Below are positions 1-20,514 of a stretch of 64,000 bases of DNA, piece by piece (the stretch's first letter is position 1; each line of letters opens with the position of its first letter). Position numbers and translations under genes: made by a program. This DNA is from an uncultured Pseudomonadota bacterium (GTDB lineage: Bacteria > Pseudomonadota > Gammaproteobacteria > Steroidobacterales > Steroidobacteraceae): positions 1 to 64,000 of the forward strand of contig CAIOZU010000016.1 in NCBI GenBank assembly GCA_903862885.1, written 5' to 3'. The notes under the pieces are model-generated. The model saw only the letters and a program-made list of their open reading frames with translations, was not told the DNA's origin and did not search any database.

Positions 1-552
1 CTCGGCAACGCCGCGGTCGGTCGCAACCTGCCGAACTTCGTCTGCATGGTGATCGTCGGCATGACCGTGATCGTGCCCGTGGCTGTGGCCGTGGTGGTCG
101 CCGCTCAAAAGCCATGCGCTCACGATATTCACCCCGAGGCCCACCACCGCAATCGGGATCGCCTCTGCAAAGTGAATCGGAACCGGAGACAAGAAGCGAG
201 CGATGGCCTCGTAGCCGATGAGCAGCGCGATCATCGCAAGCACGATTGCACTACTAAAGCCCGCCAAGTCGCCGAACTTACCGGTACCAAACATAAACCG
301 CCCATCATGGGCATGTCGCCGCGCATAGGTATACGCCAATGCGGCGATCAACATTGCGCCGGCGTGGGTCGACATATGCAAGCCATCAGCGACCAGCGCT
401 AGAGAGCCATAGACGCTACCGCCGACGATCTCGATGACCATCATCGCGGCGCACAACACGATCACCGCCCACGTCTTCCGTTCATTCTGCTCGTGCCGCG
501 CCCCTAAAAAGACGTGACTATGTCCGTCCGACTCGCTCGTGGTGCTATTCAT
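1..552 (-). CDS. dmeF: DmeF-type CDF cation efflux protein (3' part beyond window)
   Basis: Inner-membrane cation diffusion facilitator that exports divalent metal (Co/Ni in characterised DmeF proteins) in exchange for protons. The 184 visible codons begin MNSTTSESDG and give alternating hydrophobic helices. A TM2 motif ADGLHMSTHAGAM is typical of the DmeF branch, where the usual CDF second Asp is replaced by the HMSTHA pattern. A His-rich loop (residues about 153-175, repeated HGH/HHGH) is the expected cytoplasmic metal-binding loop between TM4 and TM5. The reading frame is still open at base 1, so the C-terminal half lies outside the window. It lies 43 bases downstream of the regulator gene on the same strand, so the two probably form a dmeR-dmeF-like operon. 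The substrate metal is inferred from family only. Confidence 0.88.
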   Translation of the reverse strand, partial: MNSTTSESDGHSHVFLGARHEQNERKTWAVIVLCAAMMVIEIVGGSVYGSLALVADGLHMSTHAGAMLIAALAYTYARRHAHDGRFMFGTGKFGDLAGFSSAIVLAMIALLIGYEAIARFLSPVPIHFAEAIPIAVVGLGVNIVSAWLLSGDHHGHSHGHDHGHADDHHADEVRQVATDRGVAE

Positions 553-595
553 TACGGGAAGCTCCTGACATGGCCTGTCACCGTTACGTTATCGA

Positions 596-856
596 TTAGA
601 GGTACTTGGTGAATGCCTGAAATTCTTTAACCAACACCCTGAACTCCTTCGGCAACGCCTCGGATGTCTCTTCCATGCAGTGATTGATGTGGTCCTTGAT
701 CAATTCCTTCTTCGCATTCCCGATGGCTTTTTCCACCGCGTGCAACTGTTGGGCTAGATCCAAGCAGGGCCTGCCTGCCTCCAGCATCTCGATTACTTTC
801 GCGAGATGTCCCTGGGCGCGTTTGAGGCGGCTACCGATCTCAGGAAATTTATGCAT
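596..856 (-). CDS. CsoR/RcnR-family metal-sensing repressor
   Basis: Small all-helical DNA-binding repressor (86 aa, normal for the family) that releases its operator when metal or another effector binds. Family features visible are the RLKRAQGHL segment near residue 10, Cys31, His56 and Cys60. The Cys-His-Cys triad with spacing 25 and 4 is the CsoR (Cu(I)) fingerprint. RcnR/DmeR-type Ni/Co sensors have Cys-His-His. Gene context (a DmeF exporter downstream, an RND pump divergent) would have predicted a Co/Ni sensor, so the ligand is uncertain. A Gly/Cys-type persulfide sensor is unlikely because His56 is present. It probably controls its own operon and perhaps the divergent efflux operon through the palindrome at 863-886. 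Confidence 0.88.
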   Translation of the reverse strand: MHKFPEIGSRLKRAQGHLAKVIEMLEAGRPCLDLAQQLHAVEKAIGNAKKELIKDHINHCMEETSEALPKEFRVLVKEFQAFTKYL

Positions 857-862
857 GGCGGG

Positions 863-886
863 TATCCTATCCCCCTAGACAGGATA
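863..886. promoter_or_regulatory. Probable CsoR/RcnR-type operator
   Basis: Perfect inverted repeat TATCCT-N12-AGGATA around a run of five C, the layout expected for this repressor family (A/T-rich arms flanking a G/C tract). A second, overlapping near-palindrome pairs TCCTATCCCCC (865-875) with GGGGCATAGGA (893-903). It lies in the 100-base region between the divergent regulator/dmeF and RND operons and overlaps the predicted regulator promoter. Binding is inferred, not shown. Confidence 0.6.
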
Positions 887-892
887 TTGGAA
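864..892 (-). promoter_or_regulatory. Putative sigma-70 promoter of the regulator-dmeF operon
   Basis: On the minus strand, -35 TTCCAA (887-892) and -10 TAGGAT (864-869) are separated by exactly 17 bases. Both hexamers are imperfect. The operator palindrome covers the spacer and -10, which fits autorepression. Confidence 0.4.
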
Positions 893-956
893 GGGGCATA
901 GGATCGCTTCCGCCTCGGGAGCCAGATTTGAATTCACTCCATTAGGGATGTCCTCC

Positions 957-2123
957 ATGCCGATTCACGACCATCAACCGGCGTTTCGCGGTCGAGCCTT
1001 TTTTTGGGGTGGCATAGGCTTGGGGCTCCTGTTGGTAGCGGCATTACTCACCCATGGCTTTGGGTTGATGGGGGGCGCAGCCAAGGCGACGCCGGAACCC
1101 GCCTGGATGGTCCGTCAAGGGAACAAGATCGTGATTCCCGAAGGCTCGCCCCTACGGTCTCGTCTCACCGTAGCGCCGGCGTCGGCCGATTCAATTCAGG
1201 CCAAATTGGTACTTCCGGGCGTAGTCGAGTCCGATCCTGCCCGTACTGCCATCGTCATTCCCCCGTTAAGCGGCCGTGTTATCGACCTCAAAGTCCGGTT
1301 GGGGGACCGGGTGATCAAAGGTCAGGTGTTGGCGGTATTGGATTCTCCCGACTTGGCGCAGGCCTACGATGACTACGACAAAGCCGCTGACGCCTTCAAG
1401 TTGACGCAAAAGAATTTGGGCCGGCAGCAAGAGCAATCCAAAATCGGCGTCGCCTCCGATCGGGATCTCGATCAGGCCAAAAGCGACAACGCCCAGGCGG
1501 AGGCGGAATACACGCGCACGCGCGCACGCCTTGCAATACTCGATGCACCGACCGACTCCCGGGGTTCCTTGCGCCAGCTCACCGTGCGTGCGCCCGTCGC
1601 AGGCAGTATCACGGCATTGAGCGTGACACCCGGGAGCACGATCAACGACGCCACGCAACCCCTGATGACCATTGCCGACTTGAGTACGGTATGGGTCACC
1701 GCGCTGGTGCCGGAGAAGGATATCGGCACGGTCGCCAAAGGTCAGGACGCTGAGGTGCGCCTCGTCGCCTATCCCGACCGGTCGCTGCATGGAAAAGTGT
1801 TGTTCGTCGGCGATGTGATCGAACCGGACTCTCGGCGCAACAAGCTCCGGATTGGATTTGCCAATGCCGACTACGCCTTAAAACCCAATATGTTCGCGAC
1901 CGTGACGCTGGTCGGCACCCCGCACTCGCAAGTGGTGCTGCCGAGTTCATCGCTGCTCATGAACAACGATCGGACCAGCGTCTTCGTCGCGACTGCCCCC
2001 TGGACCTTCGAGCGCCGCACCGTGGAGCCGCAACTGGAAGACGGCCCTTCGGTTGCTATCAGGTCCGGCGTCGCGGCCGGTGAACAAGTGGTCGTGAAGG
2101 GCGGGATCCTTCTCAATGATTGA
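957..2123 (+). CDS. HME-RND efflux periplasmic adaptor (CzcB/CusB-like)
   Basis: Membrane-fusion subunit that bridges an inner-membrane RND pump and an outer-membrane channel for metal export. An N-terminal membrane anchor (about residues 12-38) is followed by a biotinyl-lipoyl-like half (PLSGRVIDLKVRLGDRV), an alpha-helical hairpin with Gln/Ala-rich heptads (about 130-190), the second lipoyl half (VRAPVAGSITALSVTPGS), beta-barrel (TVWVTALVPEKDI) and membrane-proximal domains. Length 388 aa is typical. An in-frame ATG at 948 gives three more residues. ATG 957 is preferred because AGGGA sits about 8 bases upstream of it. No His-rich metal-binding N-terminus like that of CzcB is present. It overlaps the pump gene by 8 bases, so the two are translationally coupled. 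Confidence 0.92.
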   Translation: MPIHDHQPAFRGRAFFWGGIGLGLLLVAALLTHGFGLMGGAAKATPEPAWMVRQGNKIVIPEGSPLRSRLTVAPASADSIQAKLVLPGVVESDPARTAIVIPPLSGRVIDLKVRLGDRVIKGQVLAVLDSPDLAQAYDDYDKAADAFKLTQKNLGRQQEQSKIGVASDRDLDQAKSDNAQAEAEYTRTRARLAILDAPTDSRGSLRQLTVRAPVAGSITALSVTPGSTINDATQPLMTIADLSTVWVTALVPEKDIGTVAKGQDAEVRLVAYPDRSLHGKVLFVGDVIEPDSRRNKLRIGFANADYALKPNMFATVTLVGTPHSQVVLPSSSLLMNNDRTSVFVATAPWTFERRTVEPQLEDGPSVAIRSGVAAGEQVVVKGGILLND

Positions 2124-5100
2124 CCAGTTCGTCGGCTTCTGCCTAAACCGACGTATCGCGATCATTGTGCTCGCGGTGCTGTTGAGCGGCTTCGGCATTT
2201 ACGCCTGGAAGACGCTGTCGGTCGAGGCGTATCCGGACTTGGGCGACGTGGCCGCGCAGGTCACTACCCAGATGCCGGGGCTCGCGGCCGAAGAAGTCGA
2301 GCAGCTGATCACGGTGCCGCTCGAGCGCCAGATCAACGGCACGCCAGGTCTCCTTCTCATGCGCTCGACGAGTACCTTTGGCTTGTCGTTGATCACCGTG
2401 TTGTTTCGTGATGGCTATGAGGACTACTGGGCACGGCAGCGCCTCACCGAACGCATCAGCCAGGCCGTTCTTCCGACCGGAGCGACGCCGTCGCTCGATC
2501 CCGTCTCGGGACCGGCCGGTGAAATCTATCGGTATACGCTGGAGTCCGATGCCAAGAATCTTCAGGAGTTATCTGAGATCCAGCGCTGGACCGTGATTCC
2601 CGCCTTGAAGTCGGTTCCCGGCGTGGTAGATGACACGAATTTCGGCGGCTTCACCACCGAATACCAGCTCGATCTCGATCCAAGACAGCTCGAGCATTAT
2701 GGTCTCGGGATCACCGATGTCATCAATGCCATCAACAACAACAACACCAATGCCGGCGGCGGCCGGGTCTCGCGCGGCGATCAAAGCTACGTCATCCGCG
2801 GCGTCGGTTTAATCCATAACCTCACCGAAATCAGCTCCATCGTCGTGAGCCAGGTCAACGGCACGCCGGTCCTCGTCCGCGATCTGGGATCCGCGACGTT
2901 GAGCCACCAGGAGCGCGAAGGCATCGTCGGCAAAGACGCCAATCCCGACACGATCGAAGGCATCGTTCTGATGCTGAAATATCAAAACCCGTCGCAGACC
3001 TTGCTTGGGATTCATAACAAGGTGGCTGAGCTCAATCGTCAGCTGGAAAGTCGCGGCGTCAAGATCGTGCCGTATATCGACCGCGATGACCTCGTCAAGG
3101 CGACCATCGAGAAGGTCGGCCGTACGATTGCTGAGGGCATTGGCCTCGTCTTCCTGATCCTGATTCTGTTCCTGGGCAGCCCGCGTAGCGCACTGGTCGT
3201 GGCGGTAACCATCCCGTTGGCCCTGGTATCGGTGTTTTCGCTCCTCAATCTCACCCATGTGTCGGCTAATCTGCTGTCCTTAGGCGCCATCGATTTCGGC
3301 ATTTTGGTCGATGGGGCGATTGTCGTGACGGAAGCCGTACTGCGGCGGCGCGAAGCCATGCCCGCCGAAGAGATGAGCGAGAGCGAAGCCAAAGCCGCAG
3401 TCTTGCAGGTGACACGGCCGATCTTTTTTGCGAGCCTCATCATCATCACGGCTTATCTGCCGCTCTTTTCCTTTGAGCGCGCCGAGGCCAAGCTGTTTAC
3501 GCCGATCGCCTACACCATGGGTTATGCGCTATTCGGCGCATTGCTGACCGCATTGGCGCTGGTCCCTGGCCTCGCGTATCTCGCCTTTCGGCATCCTGGC
3601 AAGGTCTATCAGAATCGCTGGCTCGAGCGTCTGACGGTACTCTACGACCGCGCCCTCGCCGCCTGTCTCGATCAGCCGCGGATCATCTATGGTGTCGCGA
3701 TTTTTGCCCTATTGGCGGTGGTCGGATTCGGCGCCACCGTGGGCCGGGAGTTTCTGCCCGACCTGGACGAGGGTGCGCTGTGGCTGCAGGTGCAGATGCC
3801 GACCGGCCTGGCCTTGAACAAGGCCAGCGACATGGCAAGCGATCTGCGGCGCGCGATCTTGAAGTACCCGCAGGTTTCCTACGTGGTCACTCAAACAGGT
3901 CGCAACGACGACGGCACGGACTCTTGGACCATGTCGCACATGGAAGTCCCTGTGGGTTTGAAGCCCTACGACACATGGCCGGGCGGAGAATCAAAAAAGC
4001 ACTTCGTGGATCGGCTGGGGACGGACCTTGCCAAGGAACTGCCTGGTTATTCCATCGGCATCAGCCAGCCGATCATTGACGGCGTCAATGACATGATCGG
4101 GGGCGCCCATAGCCCGTTGGTCATCAAAATCTATGGCGATGATCTTGACGTATTACGCCGCATCGGCAACCAGATTGTCGACGTGCTGTATACCGTTCCC
4201 GGGACCTCGAGCGCATCGCTGTTCCAGGAGCCGCCGATTCCGCAGATGGAGATCAAGCTCGATCGCGAAAAGGCCGCCCGCTATGGCGTGAACATGACCG
4301 ACGTCCAGAACGTCATCCAAACGGGGGTAGGCCAGGCTCCCGTTTCGACTGTTTACGTCGGCGAGCGCACGTATCCCCTGACGGTGAGGTTTACGGCGCA
4401 ATCGCGCAGTGGCCCGGACGCTCTCGGCAATCTGCCCGTCCATACCGCTAGCGGCGCCCAGATCCCGCTCTCTCAGATCGCCGACATTCGCGTGCGCTCG
4501 GGAGAGAGTACCGTTACCCGCGAAAACGGCTCGCGGAACCTGACCATTCGCATCGATAACCGCGACCGGGATCTGACAAGCTACCTCGAGGACGCCCAGG
4601 CAAAAATCGCCGCACAGGTGCATTTCGACCATAACGCGATCCGGTTGGAATGGGGTGGCCAGTTCGAAAATCAGCGCCGTGCCGAGGCGCGACTGCTCGT
4701 CATCTTAGGTTTGGTGATGGGTCTCATGCTGATTTTTCTTACCGTCGGTACCGGCTCGCTGCGCCAGGCACTGTTGATTCTCAGTGTGGTACCGCTCGCC
4801 ACCCTGGGCGGTTTGATCTCTCTGCACCTGACTGGTCAGAACCTGAATGTCGCCAGCGGTGTGGGCTTCATTGCTCTGTTCGGCGTGGCCGTCCAAAACG
4901 GCATCATCATGGTGTCGAACCTGAATCGCATGCGAAAAGCCGGATTTGAACTTCACGAAGCCATCATGAAGGGTGCCACTGAACGCCTGCGACCCGTGTT
5001 GATGACGGCATCGGTCGCCACATTGGGAATGCTGCCCGCGGCACTGCACACGGGAGTGGGCAGTGACGTGCAACGCGGGATCGCGACCGTGGTCGTCGGA

Positions 5101-5208
5101 GGACTTGCCATTTCGACGGTGCTGACTCTCTTCGTGCTGCCGTCGATGTATCACGTAATCGAGCATTGGGCCGAGCAGCGACACGGCGAAGCAAGGTGGG
5201 GACGATGA
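2116..5208 (+). CDS. Heavy-metal RND efflux pump (CzcA family)
   Basis: Proton-driven inner-membrane antiporter of the HME-RND family, 1030 aa, which is full length. Visible parts are TM1 (residues 11-28), the first porter region, a TM2-TM6 block (about 330-500) and a mirror-image second half ending in a TM block. The TM4 proton-relay signature DFGILVDGAIVVTE places D393, D399 and E406 with the same spacing as D402, D408 and E415 of CzcA. This argues for divalent cation export rather than Cu/Ag (CusA lacks this pattern), but the residue after Glu is Ala, not the usual Asn. The gene starts inside the adaptor gene and overlaps the outer-membrane factor by ATGA. Substrate is inferred as Co/Zn/Ni/Cd class. 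Confidence 0.94.
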   Translation: MIDQFVGFCLNRRIAIIVLAVLLSGFGIYAWKTLSVEAYPDLGDVAAQVTTQMPGLAAEEVEQLITVPLERQINGTPGLLLMRSTSTFGLSLITVLFRDGYEDYWARQRLTERISQAVLPTGATPSLDPVSGPAGEIYRYTLESDAKNLQELSEIQRWTVIPALKSVPGVVDDTNFGGFTTEYQLDLDPRQLEHYGLGITDVINAINNNNTNAGGGRVSRGDQSYVIRGVGLIHNLTEISSIVVSQVNGTPVLVRDLGSATLSHQEREGIVGKDANPDTIEGIVLMLKYQNPSQTLLGIHNKVAELNRQLESRGVKIVPYIDRDDLVKATIEKVGRTIAEGIGLVFLILILFLGSPRSALVVAVTIPLALVSVFSLLNLTHVSANLLSLGAIDFGILVDGAIVVTEAVLRRREAMPAEEMSESEAKAAVLQVTRPIFFASLIIITAYLPLFSFERAEAKLFTPIAYTMGYALFGALLTALALVPGLAYLAFRHPGKVYQNRWLERLTVLYDRALAACLDQPRIIYGVAIFALLAVVGFGATVGREFLPDLDEGALWLQVQMPTGLALNKASDMASDLRRAILKYPQVSYVVTQTGRNDDGTDSWTMSHMEVPVGLKPYDTWPGGESKKHFVDRLGTDLAKELPGYSIGISQPIIDGVNDMIGGAHSPLVIKIYGDDLDVLRRIGNQIVDVLYTVPGTSSASLFQEPPIPQMEIKLDREKAARYGVNMTDVQNVIQTGVGQAPVSTVYVGERTYPLTVRFTAQSRSGPDALGNLPVHTASGAQIPLSQIADIRVRSGESTVTRENGSRNLTIRIDNRDRDLTSYLEDAQAKIAAQVHFDHNAIRLEWGGQFENQRRAEARLLVILGLVMGLMLIFLTVGTGSLRQALLILSVVPLATLGGLISLHLTGQNLNVASGVGFIALFGVAVQNGIIMVSNLNRMRKAGFELHEAIMKGATERLRPVLMTASVATLGMLPAALHTGVGSDVQRGIATVVVGGLAISTVLTLFVLPSMYHVIEHWAEQRHGEARWGR

Positions 5209-6704
5209 CGGCGTCTCGACTCGCGGCTGGTGTTCTCTTCGCGAGCCTGACCGCTTGCGCGGTCGGCCCCAATTTCCAGCGACCGCTGGCGCCGGCCGCT
5301 GCTGGCTATGGCAGCGCAACCGTACAGGGGCAGACATCCTCGGCCGAGGTGCACGGTGGCGACGCGCAACGATTCGTCACGGGCTTGGATATTCCCAGCC
5401 AGTGGTGGACTCTATTCCAATCACCCAAGCTCAATCACTTGGTCGAGCAAGCGCTCAAGGGCAACCCAAATGTTGGCGCCGCACAGGCGGCGCTGCGTCA
5501 AGCCCACGAGTTGTATTCGGCGCAGTGGACCAGCTACTTCCCGACTATCCAGGGGAATTTCAGCGGCACTCGATCCAAGAACGCCATTGGAACCATTGCC
5601 AATCCCACCAATCTTCCCCAAGCGAACCCCTACTACAATCTCTACACGGCCCAGCTCAGCGTCAGCTATCTCCCAGATGTCTTTGGCGCAACTCGGCGTC
5701 AGGTGGAACTGTCGAGGGCACAAGTCGAGAGCAATCGCTTCCAGCTCGAAGCCACGTACCTGACCTTGAGCAGCAACGTAGTCGTCGCAGCAGTTCAGGA
5801 GGCCTCGCTCCGCGGCCAGATCGCGGCGACGGAACGGCTGCTCGAGTTACAACATCAGCTGACTGACAAGGTTCAGCGGCAACGAGCGCTCGGAACCGCG
5901 AACGATTTGGATGTTCTCGCTCAGCAGTCTCTGGAGGCGCAAACCGCACAGACGCTGCCGCCCTTGCAGAAGCAATTGGGACAGACGCGGGACGCCATGA
6001 CCGCATTGCTCGGGAGGCTGCCCTCCGATGAACCACCCGAGACCTTTCGATTGGATGAGCTGACCTTGCCGTCTGAACTTCCGGTCAGCTTACCGTCGAA
6101 GTTGATCGAGCAGCGCCCGGATGTTCGCCAGGCAGAGGAAAACATGCATGTCGCATCCGCCGCCGTCGGCGTGTCGATTGCCAATCTGTTGCCGCAGTTT
6201 TCGATCAATGCCGATGTGGGGTCGAATGCGCTCGCGTTGAAAAATCTTTTTTCTCCCTATACCGGATTCTGGGATGTGGGCGCCTCCTTGACCGAAACAC
6301 TGTTCGACGCAGGGGCACTCCTCCACAAGAAGCGCGCGGCGGATGCCGCACTGGATCAAGCAGCAGATCAGTATCGCGCCGCCGTCATTCTCGCCTGCCA
6401 AAATGTGGCCGATAGCTTGCGCGCCTTGCAGGCCGACGCCGATGCCCTGAAGGCCAGTGCCGAAGCAGACCGTGCGGCCAAAGCCTCCTTTGACCTCGCT
6501 CAACGCCAGCGGACGCTGGGGACCATCAGCCTGGTGGCGGTGCTGAATGCCGAGCAGACCTACAGCCAAGCGGAACTATCCTTGGTGCAAGCCCAAGCCA
6601 ATCGGTATGCCGATACGGCGGGTCTGTTTCAGTCGCTGGGCGGTGGCTGGTGGAATCGAACACAGGAGCCTCACTATGAACAATTTAGTTCGCCGGGAAA
6701 ATAG
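5205..6704 (+). CDS. Outer-membrane efflux lipoprotein (NodT/CzcC-type OMF)
   Basis: TolC-like outer-membrane channel of the RND complex, 499 aa. The start ATG at 5205 overlaps the pump stop (ATGA) and has a purine-rich AAGGTGGGGA upstream. A longer frame from 5166 is less likely. The signal peptide ends in a lipobox, LTAC, giving acylated Cys18, followed by AVGPNFQRP, the hallmark of NodT-type factors. Two OEP repeats follow, with coiled-coil stretches around residues 65-230 and 290-460. Unlike a typical three-gene pump operon, the next gene (a crotonase) starts 29 bases before this one stops. Confidence 0.92.
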   Translation: MTASRLAAGVLFASLTACAVGPNFQRPLAPAAAGYGSATVQGQTSSAEVHGGDAQRFVTGLDIPSQWWTLFQSPKLNHLVEQALKGNPNVGAAQAALRQAHELYSAQWTSYFPTIQGNFSGTRSKNAIGTIANPTNLPQANPYYNLYTAQLSVSYLPDVFGATRRQVELSRAQVESNRFQLEATYLTLSSNVVVAAVQEASLRGQIAATERLLELQHQLTDKVQRQRALGTANDLDVLAQQSLEAQTAQTLPPLQKQLGQTRDAMTALLGRLPSDEPPETFRLDELTLPSELPVSLPSKLIEQRPDVRQAEENMHVASAAVGVSIANLLPQFSINADVGSNALALKNLFSPYTGFWDVGASLTETLFDAGALLHKKRAADAALDQAADQYRAAVILACQNVADSLRALQADADALKASAEADRAAKASFDLAQRQRTLGTISLVAVLNAEQTYSQAELSLVQAQANRYADTAGLFQSLGGGWWNRTQEPHYEQFSSPGK

Positions 6705-7434
6705 CGGCGGGGTGGCGACCCTGACATTGAATCGCCCGGAGAAGTTGAATGCGCTCTCCAAAGAGGTGTTCGAGGAATTAGACGTGCATGTGGATGCCAT
6801 CGCGCGTGAAAAGAGGAAAATAGGGCTCGTCATCCTGCGCGGCGCCGGCGGGCACTTCTCTGCGGGTTACGACATGAGCGAGGTCCTCGAGCACGTGAAG
6901 GCCCACGCCAAGCCTCATTTCCATTCGGAGGTTATTCAAAAGATCGCCAACCTGCCGCAACCCGTAATTTCAGCGGTGCAAGGGTTTTGCTCGACTGGCG
7001 CAATGGAGCTCGCTTTGGCGGCCGACCTGATTGTTGCGGCCGAATCGGCACAGTTCTCCGATGTCTACGCGCGGTGGGGTCTCACCCCGGTGTGGGGCTT
7101 GAGCTTGCGGTTGCCACATCGTATCGGCACCGCCAAGGCGAGCGAAATGATGCTCACCTGCCGAAGCTATTCGGGGCGGCAGGCCGAAGCCATGCATCTT
7201 GCGAATTTCTGTTTTCCCGATGATCGATTCGATACTGACCTCGCCGCTCTTGCGGCGGATATCTTGAGCAACTCGTGGTACGCCAACCAGGTAAATAAGC
7301 GCGCGCTGATCGAAATCGATGGGTTGAGCCTGCACGACGCCCATGCGTTGGAGTTGTTCAAGAACGAAGGATTGGCGCCGGATGCGGGAGAGCGGATTGC
7401 GAAGTTCTTCGCAAAACACGAAGCCTCAAAATAG
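6676..7434 (+). CDS. Enoyl-CoA hydratase/isomerase family (crotonase) protein
   Basis: Crotonase-fold acyl-CoA enzyme, 252 aa, normal length. Start ATG 6676 has AGGAG at 6664-6668. Oxyanion-hole segments are HFSAGYDM (about 60-67) and FCSTGAMELALAADL (about 104-118). Glu111 aligns with the first catalytic Glu of classical hydratase. The second catalytic Glu position, 20 residues on, is Tyr131 (SDVYARWGLTP), so a standard hydratase reaction is doubtful and isomerase, hydrolase or another crotonase chemistry is possible. It overlaps the outer-membrane factor gene by 29 bases and so is expressed with a metal-efflux operon, an odd pairing for which no functional link is known to me. Confidence 0.88.
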   Translation: MNNLVRRENSGGVATLTLNRPEKLNALSKEVFEELDVHVDAIAREKRKIGLVILRGAGGHFSAGYDMSEVLEHVKAHAKPHFHSEVIQKIANLPQPVISAVQGFCSTGAMELALAADLIVAAESAQFSDVYARWGLTPVWGLSLRLPHRIGTAKASEMMLTCRSYSGRQAEAMHLANFCFPDDRFDTDLAALAADILSNSWYANQVNKRALIEIDGLSLHDAHALELFKNEGLAPDAGERIAKFFAKHEASK

Positions 7435-7610
7435 CATCAGATGCCCAGTAGCGGTGGATCCAGGGTACTCATCTGCAACAATCGCCGGCATTCGCGCGTT
7501 GCGCTCACTTGGGATTCTAATCTGAGTTTTTGCCAGTTTTGCCCCCCTTTCCGCTATGTTCTGCCGTGGCAAGAGATGGCAGACTAGGGAAGCGCCCTGG
7601 TCCGGTCACT

Positions 7611-8006
7611 CCCACTCAGGCGTTGCGCGCCGCCGCCCATGGAGATATTAATGTCATCACGCTCCTATTGGGAGCAGAAGAGGCGGGCCTTGAGGTGTTT
7701 CATCCGTCATACGGGTGGATGCCGATTGAGGCCAGACCCGGCACCCTGGTATGCAATGTGGGCGATATGCTCGCGCGCCTAACCAACGGAAAACTGCCGT
7801 CCGCTTTACACCGCGTCACCAACCCCCCTCCCAGCCAGCCGGACCGCTCCCGCTACTCGCTGCCGTTTTTTATGCACTTTAATCCCGATTTTCTTGTAAA
7901 AACACTGCCCTACTGCATCGATGCCACGCACCCCGACGCCTATCCCACACCCATGACAGCGAATGACTTACTGCAAGAGCGGCTCGCTGCCATTCGTTTA
8001 AAATGA
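7611..8006 (+). pseudogene. 5'-truncated isopenicillin N synthase-like Fe(II)/2OG dioxygenase
   Basis: Only the C-terminal half of a non-heme iron dioxygenase is present. It begins abruptly at PTQALRAAAHGDINVITLL and keeps the iron ligands HGD and a later His (ALHRV), the RYS co-substrate motif and the tail NPDFLVKTLPYC. Family members are about 310-350 aa; here only about 130 residues match. The frame is open upstream to 7530, but residues before 7611 do not resemble the family and no ribosome-binding site is evident. The missing N-terminal half begins exactly where the metal-resistance block ends, which suggests that insertion or deletion destroyed the gene. A short protein could still be made, but it would lack half of the jelly-roll core. 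Confidence 0.75.
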
Positions 8007-8028: not shown

Positions 8029-9285
8029 ATGAATGCATTGACCCTCGATCTGCAAGCCGCGCTCGGCATACTGATCTATGTGGCGCTGGCGATGCCGTTT
8101 AGCTCGCGCGTCCGAGGCATCCACTGGCCACTGGTGCTTAAAGCGATTGGCTGGCAATTTGCGATTTGCTGGCTGCTGCTTCGAGTACCCGTGATCACTC
8201 ACTCCCTTGGGTTCTTAAACCAAGTCGTAGCCGCCCTCTCCGCCGCCACCTTACGCGGCACCTCCTTTGTGTTTGGTTACGTTGGTGGCGCACCGCCACC
8301 CTTCGCCCTACAAAACCCATCGCAACTGGCTATTTTCGCTTTCCAAGTCATTGCCATTATCATGGTGGTCTCAGCGCTGTCGGCGGTGCTCTGGTATTGG
8401 CGTATCCTGCCCTTTGTGATTAAGGGCATCGCCTGGGTCTTTAAGCGTACGCTCGGTACCGACGGACCGGCTGGCTTTGCCATCACCGCCAATGTGTTTG
8501 TGGGCCAAGTCGAAGCCCCCTTGTTGGTGCGTCCATTTATCGCGCGCATGAGCCGCTATGAATTACTCCTCTTGATGACCGCCGGAATGGCCATGATCGC
8601 CGGCTCCATGATGGTGGTCTATTCGACGCTTCTGGCACAGCAGTTCAGTAATTTACCCACCCAACTAATGACTAAATCGCTGATGTCGATTCCGGCTTCT
8701 ATTTTGTTCGCCCACATCATGCTGCCAGACGATCATGCATCGAGTGGGCCAACAGAACCCACCCGCCCCTACACCAGCACCATGGATGCCATTACCCGCG
8801 GTACCACGGATGGATTACATATTTGGCTGAATGTGATTGCCATCTTGATCGTCTTGATCGCGCTGGTCGCCTTACTTAATCAAGGCATTGGCTTACTGCC
8901 TTGGGTGTTAGGCGAACCCCTGTCACTCGAGCGCATCGCAGGCTGGTTCTTCTCACCCTTGGCTTGGCTTATGGGCATTCCGTGGTCTGAGGCCCTGCAA
9001 GCCGGTAGCTTGCTCGGGATCAAAACCGTGCTCAATGAATTTCTCGCCTATTTAAAATTGGTCGATATGGGTCCGCATGCATTTTCAGAACGGACCCGCT
9101 TGATCGTGATTTATGCCCTTTGTGGTTTCGCCAATTTCGCCAGCATGGGGATCCAAATCAGTGGCATTGCAGCAATGGCGCCGGAGCGGCGGCACGATCT
9201 CAATGACTTGGCACTGCGTTCACTGCTGGGTGCGACCTTGGCGTCCTGCATGACCGCCGCCATCGTCGGTATCGTGGCTTTTTAA
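8029..9285 (+). CDS. NupC-type concentrative nucleoside transporter (CNT family)
   Basis: Inner-membrane symporter for nucleosides, 418 aa with about ten hydrophobic segments. The family core is visible: TLRGTSFVFGYVGG near residue 75, ITANVFVGQVEAPLL near 147 and the paired re-entrant region around GSLLGIKTVLNEFLAY (about 325), followed by CGFANFASMGIQISG. Start ATG 8029 follows TAGGATG. The TPR gene begins 12 bases after its stop. Substrate and coupling ion (proton or sodium) cannot be told from sequence by eye. Confidence 0.9.
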   Translation: MNALTLDLQAALGILIYVALAMPFSSRVRGIHWPLVLKAIGWQFAICWLLLRVPVITHSLGFLNQVVAALSAATLRGTSFVFGYVGGAPPPFALQNPSQLAIFAFQVIAIIMVVSALSAVLWYWRILPFVIKGIAWVFKRTLGTDGPAGFAITANVFVGQVEAPLLVRPFIARMSRYELLLLMTAGMAMIAGSMMVVYSTLLAQQFSNLPTQLMTKSLMSIPASILFAHIMLPDDHASSGPTEPTRPYTSTMDAITRGTTDGLHIWLNVIAILIVLIALVALLNQGIGLLPWVLGEPLSLERIAGWFFSPLAWLMGIPWSEALQAGSLLGIKTVLNEFLAYLKLVDMGPHAFSERTRLIVIYALCGFANFASMGIQISGIAAMAPERRHDLNDLALRSLLGATLASCMTAAIVGIVAF

Positions 9286-9297
9286 AAGGCACCTGAC

Positions 9298-10170
9298 ATG
9301 CGCACCGATCGTGCAGCACGCAGACGCACTGCCCTATGGATCCTTGCGGCACTGGTGGTGCTCCATGCAGGGGCGTACGGCGCGTACGCCCTGCGCGCCC
9401 GCCAAGCGGCGTTGGCAACGCGCTTTAGAGACGCTCGCGAACAGTGGGCTAACGGGCAGCGCGATCTGGCCGCCGAGCAGTACGCCCGTTTCGTCAGGGA
9501 ACGCCCACAGGCCACCTGGCCACTGGTTTTATTGAAGGCATTGCCCAGTGAAGCCGCAGGCTGGTTTGTATTAGGACGAATACGCGCAGAACAAGGCCAG
9601 ACGGAGGCCGCATTGGAGGCGTTTCAACACGCGATGTCACTCGAGGCACACCTAGGCCAAAAAGAATACCGCGATCTCTTGCTGGAAACCCATCAAGCAC
9701 AGCGCCTACGCGACGTGGCACTGGCTGAACTAAAGAAAAACGATCACTCACCTGTCGCCTACAAGGACTTAGGCGCGGCCGCCCTTGCCCTCGATCAGCC
9801 CGTAGAGGCGGTACGCGCCTACCAGCAGGCACTGACTGACTTGCCCGACTTTTTAGCCGTCACCGATCCGCGTCGCCCACCCGGCCTCAGCAGCCAAGAA
9901 GCCGATGTGCTGACGTTACTGTCCGTGTCTGCGCGACTGGCAGGTGATCCACTGACGGCCGATCGCACCTGCCGGCAGATCCATGCCCAACAGCCAAAAA
10001 CGGCACACCTCGATCGGCTGTGCCAAGCCTATGCCGCCGAAGCACTACATCAAACGGATACCGCACAGGCGCTACTCACTGCCTACCAGCCACCGGCACC
10101 AGAACACGATGCGTTAGTCGTCCGCTTGCAAGCGTCACTGGATGGTGTGCGCCCGCGATCCCCGCATTAA
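9298..10170 (+). CDS. TPR-containing membrane-anchored protein of unknown function
   Basis: 290 aa with a single N-terminal transmembrane segment (about residues 12-32) after a very basic start, so the rest is probably periplasmic. It contains several TPR-like helical pairs: EAAGWFVLGRIRAEQGQTEA (about 80-100), PVAYKDLGAAALALDQPVEA (about 150-170) and a weaker C-terminal set. Ala/Gln-rich helices make it a scaffold-like protein. It lies 12 bases after the nucleoside transporter and could be co-transcribed. Its stop TAA and the stop of the convergent oxidoreductase share the four bases 10167-10170. I cannot assign a function. Confidence 0.75.
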   Translation: MRTDRAARRRTALWILAALVVLHAGAYGAYALRARQAALATRFRDAREQWANGQRDLAAEQYARFVRERPQATWPLVLLKALPSEAAGWFVLGRIRAEQGQTEAALEAFQHAMSLEAHLGQKEYRDLLLETHQAQRLRDVALAELKKNDHSPVAYKDLGAAALALDQPVEAVRAYQQALTDLPDFLAVTDPRRPPGLSSQEADVLTLLSVSARLAGDPLTADRTCRQIHAQQPKTAHLDRLCQAYAAEALHQTDTAQALLTAYQPPAPEHDALVVRLQASLDGVRPRSPH

Positions 10171-11120
10171 GGCTGGGCAGGTTTCACCAGCTCTGCAATG
10201 CGAATGGCGGTCTCCAATGCAGCGAGCCCCTCGCGGCCACCCACTCGCGGCGGCTCGCCTGAGCGCACGCAGGCGACGAAGGCAGCGATTTCAGCTTTTA
10301 GCGCATCGCCCTGATCGTAGCAGCGCTCATCAATAGCAACCTGCGGCAGATCTCCGACTGGCGGCTCTGCACTGCGGCGAATCACCGTCATCACTTTCTG
10401 CTGCATATCAATGGACAGATAAGCGTCGTCCTCAAATAGTCGCAACTTACGCTCACTCTTCATACTGATGCGGCTGGCCGTGACGTTGGCCACACAACCG
10501 GACGCAAAAGTAAGTCGCGCATTAGCAATATCAATATCATCTGAAAAAACCGATCGGCCAATGGCGTCAATCGCGACGATCGGCGAGTTAACGATACTTT
10601 GAATCAGATCGATATCATGAATCATCAGATCCAAGACCACGCTGACGTCTGTACCACGCAGCTTAAAAGGCGCCAAGCGAGCCGATTCAATAAAACGGGG
10701 CGCACTCACTAAACCATCGAGCGCCAAAATCACTTCATTAAAGCGCTCCAAATGACCGACCTGCAGGATGCGACCGGCGGCGGCGGCCACCTCAATGAGC
10801 TCAGCCGCCTCCGCTACGGTGGTCGTGATCGGCTTCTCGACCAGCACATGAATGCCTGCCTTCAGACAATCCCGTGCGATGACAAAATGCGAAGGCGTTG
10901 AGGTGGCAATAGACACCGCATCCACCTGGCCGATCAGCTCTCGCCAATCCGAGACAGCGGCCACTTTTAATTCGGATGCCACCGCGACGCGAGCGGCCTC
11001 CGAGGGATCCGCCACCGCCACTAACTGGCAATCGGGTAAGGCGGCCCATTTTTGAGCATGAAATCGCCCGAGATAACCCACCCCGATCACCGCCGCTCGT
11101 ATAGGCCTGATAGCACTCAT
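10167..11120 (-). CDS. Gfo/Idh/MocA-family NAD(P)-dependent oxidoreductase
   Basis: Predicted soluble dehydrogenase, 317 aa. The N-terminal Rossmann fold shows AVIGVGYLGRFHAQKW (residues about 10-25). The EKPI motif (LVEKPITTT, about 95) carries the conserved catalytic-region Lys. The C-terminal GFO/IDH alpha-beta domain has MIHDIDLI (about 165), where the conserved His and Asp lie. Members act on sugars, inositols, UDP-sugars or biliverdin, and no substrate can be assigned. The convergent TPR gene shares the stop-codon bases. The upstream small membrane protein on the same strand (stop at 11179) is 58 bases away and might be co-transcribed. Confidence 0.88.
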   Translation of the reverse strand: MSAIRPIRAAVIGVGYLGRFHAQKWAALPDCQLVAVADPSEAARVAVASELKVAAVSDWRELIGQVDAVSIATSTPSHFVIARDCLKAGIHVLVEKPITTTVAEAAELIEVAAAAGRILQVGHLERFNEVILALDGLVSAPRFIESARLAPFKLRGTDVSVVLDLMIHDIDLIQSIVNSPIVAIDAIGRSVFSDDIDIANARLTFASGCVANVTASRISMKSERKLRLFEDDAYLSIDMQQKVMTVIRRSAEPPVGDLPQVAIDERCYDQGDALKAEIAAFVACVRSGEPPRVGGREGLAALETAIRIAELVKPAQP

Positions 11121-11178
11121 TAACGCCTCTCCAACACGCGATCTCTACTGTACCCAACCGCAGACCTGACGCCGGATC

Positions 11179-11475
11179 TCAATGACCCGGCGTCGGCCAA
11201 TAATGGACACCGATCAACAGCATCGCGAGCCACGTCCCGCCCTGCGCCCACCACAGCCAAGGCCGCTCCCAGAGGGTGGCGATAAAGGCGTAACTGGACA
11301 CAAAGGACAGACCCAAAAACAGACCAAAACTCGTGATCATTGGGCCATATTCACGGGCGAAACCCGAATATTCACCGGCCAAGCTCAAAAAAACGACCAG
11401 CACCATCGCCAAACCGATCGTAATGGTGACCGCCGACCCCATAATGATCCCTGTGAGAACAGCCAATGGCGACAT
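11179..11475 (-). CDS. Small membrane protein of unknown function
   Basis: 98 aa with three clear hydrophobic helices (about residues 8-31, 46-66 and 73-90), a Glu-Tyr-Gly loop between the first two and a Trp-rich WERPWLWW stretch before the third. Start ATG 11475 has AAAAGGAG just upstream, a good ribosome-binding site, which supports a real gene despite its size. It lies between the Gfo/Idh oxidoreductase and the divergent prc protease gene. No recognised domain. Confidence 0.7.
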   Translation of the reverse strand: MSPLAVLTGIIMGSAVTITIGLAMVLVVFLSLAGEYSGFAREYGPMITSFGLFLGLSFVSSYAFIATLWERPWLWWAQGGTWLAMLLIGVHYWPTPGH

Positions 11476-11606
11476 TTGTGCTCCTTTTGAGACAATACAC
11501 CTTGATCGAGCCCGCCCCGATCACTACCCTGCATGCCATGAAAATTATGGAAATCGTCACCTTCAGGCCCGCGCGCGACACCGCAGGACCGGTAGTCTAA
11601 CCTCCC

Positions 11607-13775
11607 ATGAACGAACCCCAACAGATGGCGCCTAAGCGGCGTAGCCGGCTCGCGACCCTCGCGGCCATCGGCGTGCCCTTATTGGTCGTAGGCGCCTTCG
11701 CCCTCAGCGGGGGGCATAGCCTCCACCTCGCAACGGGCGGCCAAGCGCAGGCCGCGACCGTCGGCCTACAGGCCTCTGAGCGCCACCGCAAGGTGGCGCG
11801 TCTGGTGGGCGAAGTCATTGAGCGCCAGCACTACCGTCAAACGGCGCTCGATGAAAAAATGTCCTCTGAGGTGTTTGATCAATTCTTTGATGGCTTAGAT
11901 AGCTCACGCGCCTACTTTTTAGCCTCTGACATCGCCGAATTCGAACCCTATCGGCAGAAACTCGGTGAGGTGATTCGTACCGGAAAACTAGAGCCCGTGT
12001 TCGAGATCTTTGCACGTTATCAATCGCGCAATCGCGCGGCCACCACCGCCGCGCTCGACGCGCTTCTGCACGAGCCTGACTTTACCATCGATGAAAGCCT
12101 CAACTTCGATCGCGCCAAAGCACCGTGGCTTACGACCCAGTCTGAGTGGGATGACTTGTGGCGTAAACGCGTTAAAAATGACGCGCTGTCTTTAATGCTT
12201 GCCAATAAGACGTGGACGGAAGCGGCAGAGATATTAAAAAAACGATACGAGCGTGTTTTAAAGCGCATCGACCAGGTCTCTAATGACGACGTCTTTGATA
12301 TCTTCATGAATTCATACGCACACGTCTACGACCCCCATTCCAACTACATGTCACCTCGTGCCAGCGAGGAATACAATATCGCCATGAAGCTGTCCTATGT
12401 CGGCATAGGCGCTACCCTGCAGTTGATCGATGATCACGTGACGATCATGAATGTGATTCCAGGGGGACCCGCCGCCATCAGCGGTCTACTCAAGGCCAAT
12501 GATCGCATCACGGCGGTCGGCCAAGGCAAGAGCGGCGAGATGGTCGACGTCATTGGTTGGCGTTTAGATGATGTCGTGCAACTGATCCGAGGCCCCAGCA
12601 GCTCGGTTGTTCGGCTGTCTATTTTGCCGGCTGGCGTCATGCCAGGCGGTAAGGAAACCGCCCTGCAATTCATACGCAATAAGGTAACCCTTGAGGCGCA
12701 AGCCGCGCAGAAAAAGCCCACGCTGACCGTCAAGCGCGGCGAGCGTGACCTAAAAATTGGCGTCATCGATGTGCCGAGCTTCTATCTCGATTTTGACGCC
12801 AAAGTGGCGGGTGAAAAGAACTATCGCAGCACCACCCGCGATGTGGCCAAGCTCATCGCGGAACTCAAAAAAGAGAACATCGATGGCCTGATCATGGATC
12901 TGCGCGGCAACGGCGGCGGTCACTTGTCTGAGGCGACAGGCCTCGTGGGCTTGTTTATTCCCAAAGGCCCCGTCGTCCAGCTGCGCGAAACCGGCGGCCG
13001 CATTGAGGTGCTGAACGATCCTGAACCCGGCGCCGTCTGGGAGGGTCCGTTGGCAGTCCTCGTGGATCGCACCAGCGCATCTGCGTCGGAAATTTTCTCA
13101 GCAGCCATCCAGGACTATGGTCGCGGCATCATCATCGGCCAACAAACCTATGGCAAGGGCACCGTACAAAATCTGTATCCATTGGATCGTTGGGCGCTCG
13201 GGCCGAATGCGGGCTTTGGCGAACTGACCGTGACCATTGGCAAGTACTATCGAATCACCGGCGACAGCGTGCAGAATCGCGGCGTGATTCCAGAGGTGGT
13301 ATTGCCCTCACTGATTAGCACCGATGAGGTGGGCGAATCCACCAAAACCAGCGCTCTCCCCTGGGATCGGATCCGTGGTGCAGATTTTCGCCCAAGCAAT
13401 AACCTGACCAGCTTATTGCTACCCATCAACCACGCCCATGAACAGCGCCTGACCTCGGATCCCGATCTCAAGGAACTGGCAGAAGACGCCGACGTGTTTG
13501 CGGAACTTCGACAAAAAAAGACCGTTTCATTGCAAATGGCGGTCCGCAAAGCCGAGCGCGAACAACAAGAATCAGACCGCTTAGCACGCATCAATACCCG
13601 CCGCTTGGCGCACGGACAAGCGGCGCTTAAAACCTTAGAAGAACTCAAGGCCGAAGACGAGCCGGATGCCAATCTGCAAGAATCGGGACAAATCGTTGGC
13701 GACCTATGGGATGGCTTACACGCGCCTAAGTCCGTACTATCCCAGCAGACCGTGCGGCTAGCTCACCCCGAATAA
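11607..13775 (+). CDS. prc: Carboxy-terminal (tail-specific) protease Prc, S41A family
   Basis: Periplasmic serine protease that trims or degrades proteins from their C-terminus, including outer-membrane biogenesis and peptidoglycan-related substrates in relatives. 722 aa, slightly over the usual 660-690. An N-terminal membrane/signal segment (about 18-40) precedes the Prc helical domain, a PDZ domain (about 240-330, starting YVGIGATLQLIDDHVTI) and the S41 catalytic core. The catalytic Ser lies in RTSASASEIFS and the Lys in QQTYGKGTVQ. A highly charged helical C-terminus (about 590-700) fits the DUF3340 region of Prc. It overlaps the convergent DUF1249 gene by 13 bases. Confidence 0.94.
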   Translation: MNEPQQMAPKRRSRLATLAAIGVPLLVVGAFALSGGHSLHLATGGQAQAATVGLQASERHRKVARLVGEVIERQHYRQTALDEKMSSEVFDQFFDGLDSSRAYFLASDIAEFEPYRQKLGEVIRTGKLEPVFEIFARYQSRNRAATTAALDALLHEPDFTIDESLNFDRAKAPWLTTQSEWDDLWRKRVKNDALSLMLANKTWTEAAEILKKRYERVLKRIDQVSNDDVFDIFMNSYAHVYDPHSNYMSPRASEEYNIAMKLSYVGIGATLQLIDDHVTIMNVIPGGPAAISGLLKANDRITAVGQGKSGEMVDVIGWRLDDVVQLIRGPSSSVVRLSILPAGVMPGGKETALQFIRNKVTLEAQAAQKKPTLTVKRGERDLKIGVIDVPSFYLDFDAKVAGEKNYRSTTRDVAKLIAELKKENIDGLIMDLRGNGGGHLSEATGLVGLFIPKGPVVQLRETGGRIEVLNDPEPGAVWEGPLAVLVDRTSASASEIFSAAIQDYGRGIIIGQQTYGKGTVQNLYPLDRWALGPNAGFGELTVTIGKYYRITGDSVQNRGVIPEVVLPSLISTDEVGESTKTSALPWDRIRGADFRPSNNLTSLLLPINHAHEQRLTSDPDLKELAEDADVFAELRQKKTVSLQMAVRKAEREQQESDRLARINTRRLAHGQAALKTLEELKAEDEPDANLQESGQIVGDLWDGLHAPKSVLSQQTVRLAHPE

Positions 13776-14311
13776 GGCGTGAGCTGATCTGTCCCTAGCG
13801 CATCGGGACGTGGACGATCGAAGGCATCGGCAAAACGATGCCCGCGATCCACACAGTATTCCAGCCATTTATTCAGCATCATATTGCGCGTCCAGCGCGC
13901 TGCCAACGACTGAGACGCATCGATGGGTCGCACCTTCGATCCTGCGCCCCCCACTTGCCCGAAGTGATGCGCCTCAGCGACGCGAGCGTCATGATAAATG
14001 CGAATCATTAAGTCCGGCGCTGGCGGCCACTGCGGCGCTGTCGCCTCCGTACTGAACAGATAGGTCAACAAAAGCCCAGTCGTGTAAGGACCCCGCTCGA
14101 GCACGGTTAAGCGCAGCTCACAATCATCCGGCCGTCTGGATCGATAGGCGCCTGACAGAGTCTCCAGATCCCCAGCCAACCAGCCCAAACGAATGTAATT
14201 GCTTTCGTACAGGGTCATGAGCCCAACGAAACTGCCCGGCGTCGAGCGCCATGAAACAGGACAGAGTTGATCACCGGTGATCATGCAAGCAATATAGCAC
14301 GCGACACCCAT
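13763..14311 (-). CDS. DUF1249 (YqiB-like) protein
   Basis: Small uncharacterised protein conserved in gammaproteobacteria. The 182 aa include a core starting LMTLYESNYIRLGWLAG, then LTVLERGPYTTGLLLTYLF, LMIRIYHDARVAEAHHF and a C-terminal NKWLEYCVDRGHRF, all recognisable against E. coli YqiB. The start at 14311 has AGGGA about 10 bases upstream. ATG 14284 is an alternative, because residues 1-25 do not belong to the domain. Its end overlaps the convergent prc gene. Function unknown. Confidence 0.82.
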   Translation of the reverse strand: MGVACYIACMITGDQLCPVSWRSTPGSFVGLMTLYESNYIRLGWLAGDLETLSGAYRSRRPDDCELRLTVLERGPYTTGLLLTYLFSTEATAPQWPPAPDLMIRIYHDARVAEAHHFGQVGGAGSKVRPIDASQSLAARWTRNMMLNKWLEYCVDRGHRFADAFDRPRPDALGTDQLTPYSG

Positions 14312-14351
14312 CGCGCCATCCCTAGCTTACAGACGGCACTCATCACCGCCA

Positions 14352-15176
14352 TTACGGATGTACGCGGCGCTCGAGCTTCATGGCTTGCATGATGCGACTG
14401 GCAATCTCTTCAATCGAACAATGCGTGGTATCGAAACAGGGAATACCTAAACGACTGAGTAATGCCTCTGCTTGTCGCACCTCGTAGGCCACCTGCTGAG
14501 CCGATGCGTAGCGGCTGTCGGGGCGCCGCTCATTGCGGATTTGACTCAGTCGATCGGGCTGAATGGTCAATCCGAAGAGTTTATGTTGATAAGGCAGCAA
14601 CGCCTGCGGCAGTCGATCCGCCTCTAAATCATCTTCTGTCAACGGATAATTGGCAGCGTAAATCCCATATTGTAAGGCCACGTATAGGCAGGTCGGCGTT
14701 TTGCCGGAGCGCGAGACGCCCACTAAAATAATATCGGCCTGATCGTAATCGCGCGTCCTTGACCCATCGTCATTGGCCATCGCAAAATTAGTCGCATTAA
14801 TACGTGCGCTGTAGCTTGCCGTATCCGTGACGCCATGAGCGCGGCCTTCTGCGTGCGAGCTCACCACACCGAGGGCGGACTCGAGCGGTCCCAAAAAGGC
14901 ATCAAAAAAATCCAAGAACACCGCCTTCGCCAAGCGCAGCTCAGACCTCACGTCTTCTTTGATCAAGGTGCTAAACACAATGGGCGTCATGCCATCGGTC
15001 ACACCCGTCGCATCGATGTGCGCACGCACCACCGTCGCTCGCTCCAGATCCGACACAAACGGCACCGTCACGGTCTGAAAGGTCACCCCCTCAAACTGAG
15101 TCAACAAACTGTGCCCCATGGTCTCAGCCGTGACGCCGGTTCCATCCGAGACAAAAAAGACCGTCCGACCGCTCAT
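14352..15176 (-). CDS. ppsR: PEP synthase regulatory kinase/pyrophosphorylase (PSRP, DUF299)
   Basis: Bifunctional enzyme that phosphorylates PEP synthase on a Thr with ADP (inactivation) and removes the phosphate with inorganic phosphate (activation). The 274 aa match the family. The chosen ATG 15176 has GGAAG upstream and starts MSGRTVFFVSDGTGVTAET, the conserved N-terminus; an upstream frame to 15290 is non-homologous. The P-loop is ILVGVSRSGKTPTCLYVA (about 145-160). It is divergent from its target, ppsA, which is the usual arrangement. Confidence 0.95.
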   Translation of the reverse strand: MSGRTVFFVSDGTGVTAETMGHSLLTQFEGVTFQTVTVPFVSDLERATVVRAHIDATGVTDGMTPIVFSTLIKEDVRSELRLAKAVFLDFFDAFLGPLESALGVVSSHAEGRAHGVTDTASYSARINATNFAMANDDGSRTRDYDQADIILVGVSRSGKTPTCLYVALQYGIYAANYPLTEDDLEADRLPQALLPYQHKLFGLTIQPDRLSQIRNERRPDSRYASAQQVAYEVRQAEALLSRLGIPCFDTTHCSIEEIASRIMQAMKLERRVHP

Positions 15177-15346
15177 AGCGCTTCCTTTACTACCGGCATC
15201 CAGTGTAACGCGCCATTTTGCCTGTAACCGCTGGGGACACACCAAAAGCGAGCCCCCTAGCATGTAAATTGTGAGCCCCAGTGGGTACAAATTCGGTCAG
15301 AATGCGCGACAATCAGCGCCGAGTAACGCTTCCCCAAGGACCGCCC

Positions 15347-19966: not shown

Positions 19967-20514
19967 GATTCCCGCACAATGAAGTGATCGCGGTAGTAAC
20001 GCATTTCCTCGATCGACTCGCGCACATCGTCTAAGGCTTGATGGGTGTTGCGCTTGGTGAGCCCGGCGGCCACGGTGGGTGCCCAGCGCTTAGCCAATTC
20101 CTTCAATGTGCTGACATCCAGATTGCGATAATGAAAAAACCGCTCCAGTGTCGGCATACAACGCGCGAGAAAACGCCGATCTTGGCAGATGCTGTTGCCG
20201 CACATGGGTGAGGTACCTGCCGGCACCCATTGGCTTAGAAACGCCAAGAGGAGGCGCTCACCCTCCGCCTCATTGAGGCGACTGTCACGCACCCGCTGAG
20301 TGAGGCCGCTGTTGCCGTGGGTACGGGTATTCCAAGCGTCCATGCGAGCCAGCACCTCTTCCGACTGATGGATCGCCAAGACCGGTCCCTCCGCCAAGAT
20401 ATTTAAATCCGAATCGGTAATGATCGCGGCCATTTCAATGATCCGATCCGTCTCCGGAAACAGACCCGTCATCTCTAAATCAATCCAAATCAGGTGGGCG
20501 GGGTTTGGCGTCAT
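19963..20514 (-). CDS. orn: Oligoribonuclease
   Basis: Essential 3'-5' exonuclease that finishes RNA decay and hydrolyses dinucleotides such as pGpG. 183 aa, as usual. DEDDh motifs are visible: WIDLEMTGL (Asp12, Glu14), the [13 protein letters not shown] region with the second Asp, and [13 protein letters not shown] with the catalytic His and last Asp. Divergent from the Ste24-like protease gene; the ATG is at 20514. Confidence 0.96.

Follow-up and report, generated by a model that had tools for sequence, protein, structure and literature searches.

An isopenicillin-N-synthase-like dioxygenase gene in an uncultured member of the Steroidobacteraceae has been split by the insertion of an 8,550-bp metal-efflux element at an 8-bp core sequence, and no part of the gene was replaced or deleted in the process. 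The best explanation, to which we assign a probability of about 0.8, is that the element is an integrase-less cassette of the guaA-specific type that inserted site-specifically at a secondary site, TCCCACTC(A), within the dioxygenase gene. The DNA analysed here, termed the window, is a stretch of 64,000 nucleotides that constitutes the start of contig C16 of a draft genome (G000). A second species of the genus (G010) harbours a near-identical copy of the element at its guaA 3' end, and cassettes with related ends are found across the family.

The split dioxygenase gene

Of the 101 positions of the 2OG-Fe(II) oxygenase domain, the open reading frame at 7530-8006 covers 16-100 (PF03171; E 1.2e-18); the N-terminal part seen in intact relatives is missing from this frame. 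A preliminary description, made from the sequence of the window, had correctly recognized this truncation, as well as the absence of any relationship between the dioxygenase and the DNA upstream of it. The first codons of the frame (7530-7617) are element DNA, and the dioxygenase DNA proper (7618-8006, forward strand) represents the 3' half of the gene, which keeps the HGD motif and the distal histidine. It is followed by its ancestral neighbour, as indicated by synteny, a nupC-type nucleoside transporter gene (8029-9285, forward strand; PF07662/PF01773).

The 5' half of the dioxygenase gene lies on contig C69 of the same genome (about 19465-20038). There the gene runs into the element at the junction of GTGAGTCCCACTC with AATTG, and on the window side the corresponding junction is that of GGTCACTCCCACTC with AGGCG. 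Joining the two flanks at one copy of the core restores the empty site as a single frame of 329 codons (...HYPPIVSPTQALRAAAHGDINV...), whose product is 55% identical over 303 residues, free of gaps, to the enzyme of G002 from the same genus, and which matches all 13 of the homologous loci offered for comparison. As the rejoined flanks form one open frame and both halves are present, the gene was split and nothing was replaced. The enzyme itself was very probably lost after the split, because the HGD motif is absent from the 5' piece, while the 3' piece has no start of its own.

Intact dioxygenase genes directly preceding nupC, an arrangement that the preliminary description had proposed to look for, are indeed found in 9 of the 59 relatives searched (G002, G024, G026, G028, G034, G035, G037, G048 and G052), with uninterrupted frames of 291-396 codons. 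The short dioxygenase with the same flanks, which that description had named as evidence against its own reading, was found in none of these 59. The closest relative as judged by nupC (G004, 89% identity) gave no dioxygenase match, and hence the presence of this gene is patchy within the genus.

Extent of the element and its ends

A search of 15 genomes of the genus with the spacer next to the dioxygenase recovered a 100% match in G010 that stops at window position 7617. This position is the end of the element, as opposed to the edge near 7435 that had been suggested previously. The left 89% of the element (1-7617) is 99.93% identical to G010:C38:89381-96997, with 5 mismatches and a match that ends exactly at 7617. 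The remaining 933 bp correspond to C69:20031-20963, and the next 141 bases of that contig (C69:20964-21104) are exactly the same as window positions 1-141. We join C69 to the window because of this 141-bp overlap and because the corresponding DNA is continuous in G010. Comparison of C69:20025-21104 with G010 revealed 2 mismatches in 1,080 bases, both just outside the core-bounded element. The complete element, including both copies of the core, spans 8,550 bp and differs from the G010 copy at 5 positions (99.94% identity).

The right-hand copy of the core TCCCACTC, located by comparison of both junctions, occupies 7610-7617, and the second copy is C69:20031-20038. The left end of the element on the att arm side (TTTTTGCCAGTTTTGCCC ... 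CCGTGGCAA ... TCACTCCCACTC; 7508-7617) is identical in G010, and related left ends are seen in many other cassettes. Both attL and attR are therefore retained, in the form of the core and the conserved ends on either side of the element. Given both junctions, the insertion at the 8-bp core occurred by site-specific recombination.

Cargo of the element

The element carries six cargo genes. The 5' part of dmeF, coding for a Co/Ni efflux protein of the CDF family, occupies 1-552 on the reverse strand, by coordinates taken from the one-to-one alignment to G010, and the rest of the gene is on C69. The full gene in G010 (L091:9447-10709) scores 501 bits against the DmeF model NF033827 (cut-off 250). 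It is followed by a gene for a CsoR/RcnR-type metal-sensing repressor (596-856, reverse strand; PF02583, E 2.4e-20), for which no NCBIfam model scored above its cut-off. On the forward strand there are genes for an RND periplasmic adaptor (948-2123; PF16576, and TIGR01730 above cut-off), a heavy-metal RND pump of the CusA/CzcA family (2116-5208; TIGR00914, 864 bits, cut-off 701) and an outer membrane efflux channel of the NodT family (5205-6704, with the start at either 5166 or 5205; TIGR01845, 384 bits, cut-off 210). The last cargo gene (6676-7434, forward strand) specifies a protein assigned, at family level only, to the enoyl-CoA hydratases/isomerases (PF00378, E 7e-41). Metal resistance would be the phenotype conferred by this cargo, going by the names of the families. 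Neither an integrase nor AlpA nor transfer genes are present among the six genes, as judged from the gene list and the Pfam and NCBIfam families. On plasmids, the cargo had only partial matches, at 60-80% identity, to the pump or dmeF genes.

Related metal clusters are found in other genera of the family at 71-75% DNA identity. The fuller forms end at positions equivalent to 7385-7415, which places the hydratase gene within the cargo. The earlier statement that the metal block ends about 175 bases before the dioxygenase holds for the interval between the end of the hydratase gene and the dioxygenase DNA (about 175-185 bases), and not for the RND genes, which end at 6704. The cargo also differs from the host genes in composition: among the leucine codons, TTA makes up 12 of 268 in five genes of the element versus 56 of 308 in six genes of the host (8029-17725; Fisher p = 2e-7). 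GC3 is 0.72 versus 0.63, and overall GC content is 59.4% versus 57.0-58.4%. The rarity of TTA codons in the metal block, noted previously by eye, is thus borne out, and codon use is not uniform across the boundary.

The guaA site and the copy in a second species

The window copy lies inside the dioxygenase gene, and the G010 copy of the element is located at the 3' end of the GMP synthase gene, guaA. In both G010 and G009, an end of this kind directly adjoins the final guaA codons. The host proteins of G000 and G010 are only 72% (GuaA) and 63% (NupC) identical, and the 99.94% identity of the element against this background supports its recent movement between species as a single unit.

The core TCCCACTC found at both ends of the element is the reverse complement of GAGTGGGA; it is the core typical of guaA elements and differs from that of integrons. 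Counting both strands, 76.4 kb of host flanking DNA contain the 8-mer 3 times, so that a random insertion would meet it about 4 times in 100,000. Published work assigns GAGTGGGA to guaA-specific P4-type integrases, among them that of GIsul2, as their core (PMC9376610; PMC7775301), and ICE6775 generates a 12-bp GAGTGGGAGTGA duplication that includes GAGTGGGA (PMC7419628). IS21-like or Tn7-like ends, which the look of the left end had suggested, were dropped as candidates once the guaA core was seen.

Two guaA genes are present in G000, C42:688-2271 (L277) and C14:129353-130921 (L276), both of which end in GAGTGGGAGTAG. The former is 67-69% and the latter 72% identical to that of G010. The 5.2-kb contig C42 carries guaB-guaA and may be foreign to the bin, and C14 stops 84 bp beyond guaA.

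A family of cassettes with a conserved right end

The 136-bp right end of the element, searched as a 157-bp query, was matched in at least 37 of 217 genomes of the family, distributed over 11 of 25 genera; this count is a lower bound, as the search missed the right end in G005 (92 bits). A profile of the right end produced 97 whole or partial matches in 43 loci, 16 of which also contain guaA, and the cassettes often stand in tandem behind that gene. We aligned 57 near-complete copies and used 39 for column statistics: TACCGT is invariant in these, and CGATAGA motifs are repeated. The conservation of this end over 11 genera suggests that the cassettes constitute a class with an independent life and are not solely products of decay. 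When the public genome collection was scanned with a pattern, 31 stretches were recovered, all of them from metagenome bins according to their titles; the right end had no match in either the plasmid or the phage collection.

Two att boundaries delimit 36 intervals of 469 to 14,456 bp, with a median of about 2.3 kb. Their cargo was surveyed with Pfam and PADLOC on those 103 of the 126 open reading frames that reach at least 90 aa. The 25 commonest of the 131 and 86 families were inspected, and the cargo includes Fic proteins, DUF4143 ATPases, PIN domains, AbiEi, TOTE primases and TonB receptors, in addition to metabolic genes. Fic, DUF4143-ATPase, PIN, AbiE- and TOTE-type genes recur in the cassettes of L128, L133, L136, L138, L151 and other loci, a recurrence that suggests roles in stabilisation or defence. 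Since a single integrase could hide outside the 25 commonest families, a dedicated scan was carried out, which found its positive-control integrase and no complete integrase in any of the 36 bounded cassettes. One of the 36, the guaA-proximal cassette of G035 (L158, 10306-14960), has an arm-domain integrase remnant; it might be an intermediate in the loss of an integrase.

Right ends with an outer flank that lacks the full core were observed in L129 (9461), L132 (9698), L146 (353) and L157 (9822); these may represent additional insertions at off-target sites, or boundaries that have decayed. Right ends were also recovered from CALQLF020000026.1 (L211), which is titled Candidatus Planktophila lacus; it is probably mislabelled, the genome (G155) being placed in the Steroidobacteraceae.

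Candidate integrases and a proposed mechanism

A P4-type integrase gene (Arm-DNA-bind_3 and Phage_integrase domains) is present directly behind guaA in G203. Nine loci encode integrases at least 57% identical to this enzyme, and all nine belong to guaA, with eight of them directly 3' of it. In all eight, the right-end/arm profile has a match between guaA and the integrase gene, one of these matches being weak (E 0.002). The ninth, from the genus of the window (G005), has its integrase gene 8.5 kb downstream of guaA, following integrase-less cassettes in one array (L275, G005:C117, 6937-16706), with the guaA-type integrase on the outer side. Conversely, none of 21 integrase loci at 41% identity or less to the G203 enzyme lies at guaA.

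The integrase of the Steroidobacteraceae is also 53% identical to an integrase encoded beside alpA on an Acinetobacter baumannii plasmid, whose other genes include ars, trbJKL, repA/C and sul2 as well as an IS91-like element. On the basis of this gene content, we take the island on this plasmid to be GIsul2. The arm profile had no match in 17.6 kb around its integrase, and the association with the arms is therefore drawn from the Steroidobacteraceae only.

A resident helper was sought in G000 and G010 and rejected, no guaA-type integrase being found in either at E 1e-40; their three non-Xer tyrosine recombinase genes look unrelated. Movement driven by Xer enzymes was likewise discarded: PF00589 matches on the contigs of the large arrays, among those listed, are mostly XerC/D-like as judged by score rank, and they lie about 30-50 kb away.

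The mechanism that we propose is one in which the cassette carries a portable attachment site, composed of the core, a left end some 110 bp long and the 136-bp right end with its repeated arm sequences. In a circular form of the cassette these ends would come together as a lambda-like attP of about 250 bp, on which a P4-type tyrosine integrase specific for guaA, supplied in trans by another element, would act. The assignment of the ends as attP arms for such an integrase is based on the shared arm sequence and on the precedent of GIsul2. The usual address would be the 3' end of guaA, with cassettes stacking there in tandem, and the dioxygenase gene would be an off-target site. The circular intermediate, the action in trans and the route between cells are parts of this scheme that we infer.

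Alternative explanations and relationship to known systems

GIsul2 with its CR2-sul2 unit is among the closest precedents. Experiments have shown that the GIsul2 integrase can transfer CR2-sul2, a unit without an integrase, from one GAGTGGGA site to another, and that it tolerates degenerate sites (PMC9376610). The guaA 3' end as target, the core, an integrase-less unit between two att sites and the use of degenerate secondary sites are thus common to both systems. In contrast to GIsul2, the window element is devoid of integrase, AlpA, ISCR/IS91 transposase, trb and rep genes, its cargo is for Co/Ni/heavy-metal efflux, and its conserved right end of 136 bp is its own, being undetected around the GIsul2-like integrase. 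Measured against guaA islands of this type, it has the 8-bp core at both ends and lacks a P4-type integrase of its own, which usually comes with alpA; the window copy is inserted in a dioxygenase gene, whereas the G010 copy and the relatives are at guaA. ICERspD18B and ICE6775 share the guaA 3' end, GAGTGGGA or the 12-bp duplication, and metal or metalloid resistance cargo, but are described as self-transmissible, ICERspD18B with its own integrase (PMC7775301, PMC7419628), unlike the 8.55-kb element, which has neither integrase nor transfer genes.

The main competitor of our interpretation is that the cassette arrived as part of a composite: linked to an integrase-bearing island by accretion of the kind known for CIMEs and ICEs, the whole would have inserted in the dioxygenase gene and the helper would later have been excised. 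Accretion of CIMEs is established, and these elements are described as keeping their att sites, lacking integration and transfer genes and accreting in tandem at one target gene (PMC5704250). The window element similarly retains attL and attR and contains no integration or conjugation genes, but it differs from CIMEs in standing alone at an off-target site in another species and in having a right end conserved over 11 genera. Composite arrival is favoured by the tandem array of cassettes with an integrase island in G005 and by the cassette with an integrase remnant in G035. Against it, the insertion consists of precisely one cassette, whose ends are clean and which shows no scar of a helper, and an extra step is needed. 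We regard composite arrival as unlikely.

Kinship with integron gene cassettes, whose end would be a folded single-stranded attC site, is far less probable. The logic of tandem arrays, the small size of the cassettes and a mixed, adaptive cargo with toxin-antitoxin and defence-type genes are reminiscent of integrons, but the 39 right ends contain no conserved pairs, their conservation taking the form of repeated linear motifs; no integron integrase was seen, and the target is different.

A chimera of assembly or binning, in which the element comes only from a G010-like strain and was stitched to contigs of G000, is more improbable still. G000 is a draft of 73 contigs with a contig break, bridged by the 141-bp overlap, inside the element, and its second guaA contig looks foreign. 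Nonetheless, two independent junctions on the same 8-bp core restore one reading frame, and the left and right contigs supply the 5' and 3' halves of one gene, which is not expected of a chimera.

That the gene's 5' half was lost by ordinary deletion, or replaced by the metal block through homologous recombination, one of the two readings offered in the preliminary description, is scarcely credible: codon use does change abruptly at the boundary, but the 5' half survives on C69 and is joined there to the opposite end of the block, which refutes replacement unless the contigs are chimeric. In G010, moreover, the ends of the block are the same at another locus. What stands of that description is that the metal block was acquired, with its edge exactly inside the dioxygenase gene.

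Conclusions

The site-specific insertion of an integrase-less guaA-type cassette combines features that each have a precedent, in guaA islands, CIMEs and CR2-sul2. The latter two are the only integrase-less cassettes of guaA that we encountered in a survey consisting mostly of titles and the openings of abstracts, and in the same material we found no earlier description of a family-wide class with a conserved right end. Tentatively, and with somewhat less than even confidence, we suggest that the Steroidobacteraceae harbour a helper-dependent class of cassettes specialised on guaA, which would possess a complete portable attP and no recombinase, stack in the manner of integron cassettes, carry metal-resistance, toxin-antitoxin and defence cargo, and spread, sometimes to off-target sites, on integrases borrowed from GIsul2-like islands.

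What had appeared as an untidy gene fragment can now be understood as the product of recombination, with both of its junctions identified and a near-identical copy known from a second species. It also directs attention to environmental bacteria as a reservoir of recombinase-free cassettes behind guaA, at the same address that is used by the clinical sul2 islands. With the core, both ends, an integrase of the family and an off-target site defined, the movement of integrase-less passengers becomes directly testable.
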